The notes below the pieces were generated by a model, which was not told the DNA's origin, ran no database searches, and saw only the letters and a program-made list of their open reading frames with translations. A program made the translations under genes and the position numbers. Source: Longimicrobiales bacterium (GTDB taxonomy: Bacteria; Gemmatimonadota; Gemmatimonadetes; Longimicrobiales; Gaopeijiaceae). From it: 64,000 bases of DNA. Below are positions 48,404 to 49,718 of this stretch, piece after piece (position 1 is the first letter of the stretch; every line of letters starts with the position of its first letter). The stretch spans positions 248,001-312,000 of the forward strand of contig OX639991.1 in assembly GCA_951828585.1 (NCBI GenBank), given 5' to 3'.

Positions 48404-49498
48404 ATGAGCAAAAGGAATGGAGTGCGCTTCGCGACCCTGGCCGCGGCCGTGGTGCTTGATGTCCTATTCTTCCGTCCGATCGGCGGTCCGGCAGCGGTGG
48501 CACCCGGCCTTTTCGGCTTTGCGCACGGCGACTTCGCGGCTGCGATAGCGGTTCAGGAGAGTCACAATCAGGATCTGCTGGGCATACCAGGGGTGGCGGG
48601 CACCGCCGTGGCGATCGGGAGCAACGGCCTGCCGGTCGTCAAGGTCTTCCTGGCGCACGCCGGCGTCCTCGGCCTCCCTGCGAGCCTGGATGGCCACGCG
48701 TTCGTGACCGAGGTCACCGGCGAGTTCCGCGCGCTGGGCGACATGCAGCTGCCCGCGAAGGCCGACGGAGGTCCCGCGGCCGCCACCGCCACCGCCGCCG
48801 ACGAGACCGACCCCAAGCGCTCGTTCCCGCGCCCCGTGCCCATCGGCGTCTCGACCGGACAGGTCGACGTGACGGCCGGCACCATCGCCGCCCGGGTTGT
48901 CTCGGGCGAGGACGTCTTCGCGCTGAGCAACAATCACGTGTACGCCAACCGGAACGCGGCCAAGCTGGGCGACCACATCCTCCAGCCCGGCACCGTGGAC
49001 GGGGGCGTCAACCCCGACGACGCGATCGCCACCCTGCACGACTTCGAACCCATCCGGTTCTGCGCCCCCTTCCCGACCTGCCCCGAGAACCGCATCGACG
49101 CGGCCATCGCGGCCACGAGCACCGACCGGCTCGGCAACAGCACCCCGTCAAACGGCTACGGCACCCCCCGGAGCGCGACCGCGACGGCCCGCCTGGGCAT
49201 GGAGGTCCAGAAGTACGGCCGCACCACGGGTCACACCACCGGCAAGGTCACCGGCATCAACGCCACCATGAATGTCGGCTTCCGCGACGGCACCGCACGC
49301 TTCGTCGGCCAGATCATGATTTCGGGGACCGGGTTCTCGGGGCCGGGGGACTCGGGGTCGCTGATCGTGGCGGGCGGCGGCGGCTCGAACGCCCGCCAGC
49401 CTGTGGGGCTGCTCTTCGCGGGGAGCCAGAGCAGTACGCTGGCCAATCCGATCGACGCGGTGCTCAAGCGCTTCGACGTCACCATCGACGGGAATTGA
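48404..49498 (+). CDS. Exported trypsin-fold serine protease with N-terminal pro-domain
   Basis: 364 aa, ATG 48404 with an AAGGAGG site 8 nt upstream. A hydrophobic export signal (FATLAAAVVLDVLFF) leads to a small alpha/beta pro-domain (about 58-112: IPGVAGTAVAIGSNGLPVVKVF and TEVTGEF). An Ala/Asp-rich linker and a trypsin-type domain follow. The catalytic triad is visible: His178 in LSNNHVYA, Asp232 in NRIDAAIA, Ser317 in GPGDSGSLI. Two Cys (220, 226) lie near the Asp. The next gene (49503-49718) encodes a free copy of the pro-domain, 4 nt downstream. The target protein is unknown. Confidence 0.9.
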   Translation: MSKRNGVRFATLAAAVVLDVLFFRPIGGPAAVAPGLFGFAHGDFAAAIAVQESHNQDLLGIPGVAGTAVAIGSNGLPVVKVFLAHAGVLGLPASLDGHAFVTEVTGEFRALGDMQLPAKADGGPAAATATAADETDPKRSFPRPVPIGVSTGQVDVTAGTIAARVVSGEDVFALSNNHVYANRNAAKLGDHILQPGTVDGGVNPDDAIATLHDFEPIRFCAPFPTCPENRIDAAIAATSTDRLGNSTPSNGYGTPRSATATARLGMEVQKYGRTTGHTTGKVTGINATMNVGFRDGTARFVGQIMISGTGFSGPGDSGSLIVAGGGGSNARQPVGLLFAGSQSSTLANPIDAVLKRFDVTIDGN

Positions 49499-49502
49499 CA
49501 CC

Positions 49503-49718
49503 GTGCGGGACCGGTTCGAGGACGCGTGCAAGAAGGTCACCCGCAGAGTGATCGGGATCGAGGGAGTGGCCGGGACGGCGATTGGGCTGAAGGGGGGGAA
49601 GGCGTGCGTGAAGGTCTATCTGGAGCGCGATGATCCACGATTGCGGGCGAAGGTGCCGCGGTCGGTGGACGGGGTGAGGGTCGATGTCGAGGTGACGGGG
49701 AAGGTGCGGCGGTGGTAG
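49503..49718 (+). CDS. Standalone pro-domain-like protein paired with protease
   Basis: 71 aa from GTG 49503, only 4 nt after the stop of the protease, hence surely co-translated. IEGVAGTAIGLKGGKACVKVYL and DVEVTGKVRRW align with IPGVAGTAVAIGSNGLPVVKVF and FVTEVTGEFRAL in residues 60-110 of the protease. It has no signal peptide. It may act as a cytoplasmic inhibitor or folding helper that keeps the protease inactive before export, or be a remnant of a second protease; the clean start and stop argue against plain decay. Function not established. Confidence 0.75.
   Translation: MRDRFEDACKKVTRRVIGIEGVAGTAIGLKGGKACVKVYLERDDPRLRAKVPRSVDGVRVDVEVTGKVRRW

Follow-up and report, generated by a model that had tools for sequence, protein, structure and literature searches.

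A NAL1-like trypsin-fold protease and a stand-alone homologue of its N-terminal domain form a conserved gene pair in Gemmatimonadota and other bacteria

In a Longimicrobiales genome, a gene for a NAL1-like trypsin-fold serine protease is followed by a small gene encoding a free homologue of the protease's own N-terminal domain (N-domain), and this pair recurs across many bacterial phyla. We regard a functional partnership of the two products as almost certain. That in this ancient two-gene module an exported NAL1-like protease is accompanied by a dedicated trans-acting, pro-domain-like partner (inhibitor or foldase), we consider about an even bet. The pair lies in the window, the whole stretch of 64,000 nucleotides that was analyzed (G000:C1:248001-312000), within a genome of 4.47 Mb on one contig whose nearest relatives in the public collection are Gemmatimonadota/Gemmatimonadetes and Longimicrobiales MAGs.

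The features of the locus are collected in Table 1. An earlier sequence-only reading had placed the start of the small gene 4 nt past the protease stop, and had described its product as lacking both a signal and a catalytic part and as aligning with the protease. The open reading frames confirm the first of these points, since the gap from the protease stop to the GTG is 4 nt and neither a hydrophobic N-terminus nor a catalytic part is present in the small protein; the coordinates and the alignment were likewise borne out by the ORFs, BLASTP and hhalign. In a single BLASTP comparison, residues 58-109 of the protease and 16-69 of the small protein were identical at 22 of 55 positions (E 7e-07). 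Profile-profile comparison with hhalign, using family alignments of 70 small-protein and 66 protease sequences, gave a probability of 99.3% and an E of 4e-20 over protease residues 47-113. The similarity is thus far beyond chance, and a chance resemblance is ruled out by both comparisons. Programmed frameshifting or readthrough into a fused protein is disfavoured, because relatives differ in the frame of the small gene with respect to the protease stop, its start lying anywhere from -4 to about +25 nt, or further, from that stop. Scans for promoters and terminators gave no matches.

Table 1. Features of the protease/small-gene locus (positions in the window)
Feature	Position	Strand	Remarks
Protease ORF	48404-49498	+	364 aa; stop TGA at 49496-49498; NAL1-like trypsin-fold serine protease
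Hydrophobic N-terminal segment (residues about 9-23)	48428-48472	+	Probable signal or membrane anchor, by the hydropathy rule only; common to relatives
Protease N-domain (residues 41-110)	48524-48733	+	In-cis homologue of the small protein (BLASTP and hhalign)
Catalytic domain (residues 143-364)	48830-49495	+	His178, Asp232, and Ser317 with GDSGS
Cys220-Cys226 pair	49061-49081	+	Beside the catalytic Asp; probable disulfide
Candidate ribosome-binding site GGGAA	49490-49494	+	8 nt before the GTG, within the end of the protease gene; predicted from sequence
Small gene	49503-49718	+	GTG start; 71 aa; stand-alone homologue of the protease N-domain; no signal
Cys35 codon of the small gene	49605-49607	+	Signature cysteine of the family

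His178, Asp232 and Ser317 of the protease are invariant in a 66-row alignment and make up a His/Asp/Ser triad in a chymotrypsin fold. The AF2 model (pLDDT 88.8, pTM 0.86; pLDDT below 50 at residues 6-32) aligned by VIA-align with rice NAL1 over both domains (8pn2_A; Z 26.2, rmsd 3.8, 291 residues), and from residue 39 onwards with NAL1 chain 8hau_F (Z 24.9, rmsd 3.4, 280 residues). The protease N-domain, modelled as helix-strand-strand-strand, is covered by the NAL1 N-domain within this full-length match. NAL1 differs from the window pair in being a single gene and a plant regulator, and we know of no free N-domain for it. The catalytic domain alone matched streptogrisin B (Z 21.1, rmsd 1.8, 178 residues), and Z was about 20-21 for streptogrisins and alpha-lytic protease as a group. 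With Pfam Nal1_C, the window protease scored 24.3 bits, just below the gathering cut-off of 26.1, which was passed in 7 of 21 related genomes; planctomycete relatives scored 27.6 and 31.2 bits. The Pfam S64 match was weak (18.1 bits) and under its cut-off. All 27 proteases of the window family that are in alignment A4 have the cysteine pair beside the catalytic Asp, and most others lack it. This invariant FC-x5-C pair, combined with the hydrophobic N-terminus of the family, leads us to read the protease as exported.

The AF2 model of the small protein (pLDDT 88.8) is a helix-strand-strand-helix-strand arrangement (H2-16, E22-30, E33-40, H45-50, E58-64). Foldseek alone returned no significant match for it, and VIA-align was run on Foldseek's top 1000 chains. 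Two natural families lead this list. The NAL1 N-domain (8pn1_A, residues 93-173) aligned over 64 residues with Z 6.5 and rmsd 2.1; the pro region of alpha-lytic protease aligned over 69 residues with Z 6.7 and rmsd 2.9 for 4pro_C, and reached Z 6.4 for 3pro_D and 5.4 for 2pro_C. For a model of 71 residues a Z of 6-7 is within reach of unrelated small alpha/beta folds, and a Z below 8 can reflect a common arrangement; here a designed binder also reached 6.7 and unrelated small folds 5-6. Z is insufficient by itself, and we give the resemblance weight because both of these natural families belong to proteases of the trypsin fold. Searching the small-protein profile against PDB sequences gave chance-level matches, a Pfam pro-domain model did not match the small protein up to an E of 1, and no significant family match was found in Pfam, NCBIfam or PHROG. 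Several residues are nearly invariant across phyla. Among these, Cys35 is found in 123 of 125 small-gene domains, signal-bearing and signal-less alike, and no conserved cysteine occupies the equivalent place in the protease N-domain.

The sequence-only reading had proposed a search for the same pair in other genomes, and would have taken it as a refutation if homologous proteases elsewhere never had the small gene. The pair was found, and nearly all of the homologous proteases come with the small gene. Both genes occur in 72 of 121 genomes of the same family, neither in 44, the small gene alone in two and the protease alone in three (small-gene matches in 74, protease matches in 75). Co-occurrence gave a Fisher P of 7e-27, which is indicative only and overstates independence because the genomes are related. 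Two of the three protease-only genomes (G054 and G073) carry distant paralogues only, and the third (G065) has small-domain matches by a more sensitive profile; two genomes within the window genus (G023 and G025) are without both genes. A phylum-wide profile search matched 117 of 395 genomes. Scanning GTDB species genomes retrieved protease relatives from MAGs labelled Planctomycetota, Nitrospinota, Desulfuromonadales, Desulfobacterales, Chloroflexi, Acidobacteria, Fibrobacteres and Proteobacteria, and the small gene adjoins nearly all of them. The pair as such recurs in MAGs of Planctomycetota, Chloroflexota, Acidobacteriota, Desulfobacterota, Nitrospinota, Fibrobacterota and Proteobacteria, as well as in Rubrobacter and Rhizobium. 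MAG phylum labels can err, as with the 'Gammaproteobacteria' L157-L158 that match Gemmatimonadota, and MAG contigs are incomplete.

Across all 121 protease ORFs, the small gene is adjacent in 113, on the same strand and directly downstream in 110 and directly upstream in three. The swapped order is that of family f7 (L220, L221 and L245), where the protease downstream of the small gene has a hydrophobic segment at its N-terminus. Eight proteases are without an adjacent small gene: three are cut by contig ends, and of the five with sequence available, three are copies or fragments in L097 and L212, and L186 and L231 seem to be genuine absences. At L097 (G080:C14, 1500-4950), lipoprotein-type protease copies stand in tandem, the first of them with an apparent frameshift near 2210.

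Clustering of the flanking ORFs at 60 loci placed the protease cluster at 57 and its antisense shadow at 56, and no other cluster at more than 19. Clusters at 17-19 loci belong to the window genus, and otherwise they reach at most 11. The pair therefore persists while its neighbourhood changes. No third conserved gene was found at these 60 loci, the CaiB-like genes upstream and beta-propeller-like genes downstream being common to the genus only, and PADLOC gave no match for an anti-phage defence module.

Cultured bacteria carry the pair on plasmids. Plasmid 2 of Rubrobacter radiotolerans encodes the protease WP_051590075.1 and, next after it, WP_041339327.1, which is homologous to the small protein and has the conserved cysteine; its score with the profile that found the Rhizobium gene is not independent, because this Rubrobacter sequence and a single viral one had been added to that profile. 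On plasmid p_2 of Rhizobium lusitanum, the protease WP_183686299.1 lies beside the small gene WP_183686301.1 in divergent orientation. The Rhizobium small gene was found by that extended profile (E 1e-07), and the resemblance is also plain by eye. On the Rhizobium plasmids (L328 and L329), the pair adjoins genes for a radical SAM protein and a 'HEXXH motif-containing putative peptide modification protein', neighbours that suggest a peptide-maturation cluster.

IMG/VR contigs (L247-L326) encode about 80 NAL1-like proteases that are distant, at 30-50% identity, and in many of them an N-domain can be detected. A small gene was recognizable in two of these 80 viral loci, directly after the protease (L312 and L315), by profiles that may miss diverged partners. 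With most viral proteases lacking the small gene, the partner is evidently not needed for every such protease. The domain also occurs outside the pair. In the window genome, a 6-bladed beta-propeller lipoprotein (Pfam DUF5128, NHL) carries a two-cysteine version of the domain as a C-terminal fusion (L102, G000:C1:3869341-3869550, minus strand), and the same fusion was seen in two relatives (L100 and L101). Lone lipoproteins with the domain are few (L070 and L074) and rare beside the paired copies.

A tree of 136 domains, built from 81 columns and with weak inner forks, separates the small genes from the protease N-domains by one branch with 100/100 support. Because they form two separate clades with this support, the small gene is an ancient paralogue. 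Small gene and N-domain go back to one ancient split, and a recent local copying of the protease N-domain is rejected. The proposal that the small gene is a free copy of the protease's own pro-domain accordingly holds for homology to the N-domain and fails for origin, the small genes being a separate ancient paralogue family. That the domain is a pro-domain at all is something we infer; solved NAL1 chains retain the same domain (residues 93-172), so it need not be removed. Relaxed selection on the small gene, looked for as a refutation, was not seen. Within the genus, most pairs below saturation had a dN/dS of about 0.1-0.2, a level close to that of the N-domain and slightly above that of the catalytic domain; omega exceeded 1 in the very close pair L038/L040, from a handful of sites. 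The small gene is under purifying selection. In the quick protease tree and in the small-gene tree alike, the window family's pairs of lipoprotein type (L094-L099) group with pairs of other families, and this agreement fits joint transfer of both genes.

Export signals were called by hydropathy and a lipobox pattern. After a spurious match (L068) was dropped, the paired small proteins divide into 48 with an export signal and 64 without. Of the 48 signal-bearing forms, 40 have a second cysteine just before Cys35, as against 1 of the 64 signal-less ones; the eight signal-bearing small proteins without it are mostly from Planctomycetota. As the second cysteine is almost confined to signal-bearing forms, the signal-less ones are probably truly cytosolic. 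One small protein of the window family (G058, L053) keeps both the signal (TTG start, ...LLGAGSLAC) and the two cysteines. On the protease tree, the export state of the small protein changes eight times, at least four by starred branches. Judged from these sequence signals, the window lineage probably exports the protease and keeps the small protein in the cytosol, and other lineages probably export both. The partner had been described as cytoplasmic; this suits the window lineage, where it has no signal, and does not hold for the module as a whole, since in many other lineages the partner is made as a lipoprotein or with a signal peptide.

What might the small protein do? A stand-alone homologue of the N-domain has been kept beside the protease gene for a very long time, and its binding in trans to the catalytic domain is the simplest reading of this. 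One parallel is the pro region of alpha-lytic protease, which is both foldase and inhibitor and works as a separate chain. By VIA-align the small protein may resemble it in domain fold, and the client protease has the same catalytic fold. The alpha-lytic pro region differs in being encoded in cis with its protease and cleaved from it and in having two lobes rather than one, and there is no detectable sequence similarity between the two. This pro region accelerates folding of its protease (PMC2829044).

Further parallels come from other protease families. Stand-alone propeptide mimics of subtilases are known in the I9 family; SUB1-ProM of Plasmodium, a propeptide-like inhibitor encoded at a syntenic locus beside subtilisin genes, inhibits its cognate protease (PMC6993865). 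Such I9 mimics, which include SUB1-ProM, POIA1, the yeast peptidase B inhibitor, Arabidopsis SPI-1 and TgMIC5, resemble our case in that the small gene encodes only a propeptide-like domain, here of 71 aa and homologous to the protease N-domain. They differ in that the partner in the window is a trypsin-fold NAL1-like protease rather than a subtilase. SUB1-ProM and its like are moreover eukaryotic rather than a bacterial gene pair across phyla, and the small-protein model is without the first strand of the I9 topology (PMC6993865). In yeast Ssy5 (S64), a chymotrypsin-like catalytic domain is held inactive by a self-cleaved prodomain (PMC12958826). The weak Pfam S64 similarity of the window protease links the two; unlike our pair, Ssy5 has its prodomain in cis and is activated by prodomain degradation in a nutrient-sensing pathway.

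The apparent kinship in fold with the alpha-lytic pro region lends plausibility to a pro-domain-like inhibitor or foldase that acts in trans. By this analogy, the small protein would bind the catalytic domain of the protease in trans, much as that pro region does, and the bound partner would inhibit the enzyme or aid its folding. We consider direct binding likely; for inhibition or help in folding, we see the chances as evenly balanced. In the window lineage, the cytosolic small protein would act before export, blocking premature folding or activity of the protease and keeping a lytic enzyme harmless, and in lipoprotein lineages it would restrain the exported enzyme. The specific role of a cytosolic guard in the window lineage is a tentative suggestion, to which we give somewhat less than an even chance. 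Two points speak for caution: since NAL1 retains the domain, its role in this family may be other than that of an inhibitory pro-domain, and the two proteins of the window lineage would, from their predicted signals, share a compartment only before the protease is exported.

The small protein might instead be a structural or regulatory subunit in a protease hetero-oligomer, replacing the N-domain or capping the assembly and tuning activity. The protease matches NAL1 across both domains, the small proteins are homologous to N-domains, and several NAL1 structure entries contain three or six chains, so that N-domains may sit at subunit contacts. Yet a cytosolic small protein and an exported protease could not form a lasting complex, and we find this explanation unlikely, at perhaps one chance in five. 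Slightly less probable still is an adaptor or decoy, in which the domain docks cargo to the protease or competes at a site that the protease recognizes. Its fusion to a beta-propeller lipoprotein in the window genome and the few lone lipoproteins would suit such a role, but lone copies are rare beside paired ones and most small genes encode the domain alone.

The near-invariance of Cys35, which the protease N-domain does not share, raises the prospect that the small protein has a separate function, perhaps through this cysteine, and is merely co-transcribed with the protease. We rate this as improbable, a little below the adaptor, given that the pairing survives across phyla, swaps in gene order, the divergent orientation in Rhizobium and changing neighbours. 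A short gene with a GTG start just past a protease gene could also pass for a vestigial, functionless duplicate of the N-domain. Low dN/dS for most pairs, near-invariant residues across phyla and a single ancient origin refute this, and we give it practically no weight. Trans binding of the small protein to the protease remains the reading that we prefer.

The sequence-only reading knew of no described two-gene system of this form. The literature that we searched, which left most subscription journals and the NAL1 structure papers outside its scope, likewise contained no description of a conserved pairing between a trypsin-fold protease and a free paralogue of its N-domain; the pair itself is real and widely conserved. 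Its proteases on annotated plasmids are labelled hypothetical, and this, together with the lack of a family match for the small protein, is how a pair found in many phyla has gone unnamed. NAL1-like proteases are known mainly from the rice yield gene, and the pair gives them a bacterial context. We tentatively picture a widespread module whose trans regulator separated very long ago and has since changed compartment several times, between cytosolic guard and lipoprotein inhibitor, although we hold this full picture to be rather less than an even chance. Because cultured hosts such as Rubrobacter radiotolerans and Rhizobium lusitanum carry it, the pair can be tested. It offers a natural system with a pro-like domain both in cis and in trans, the roles of which are separable by genetics.
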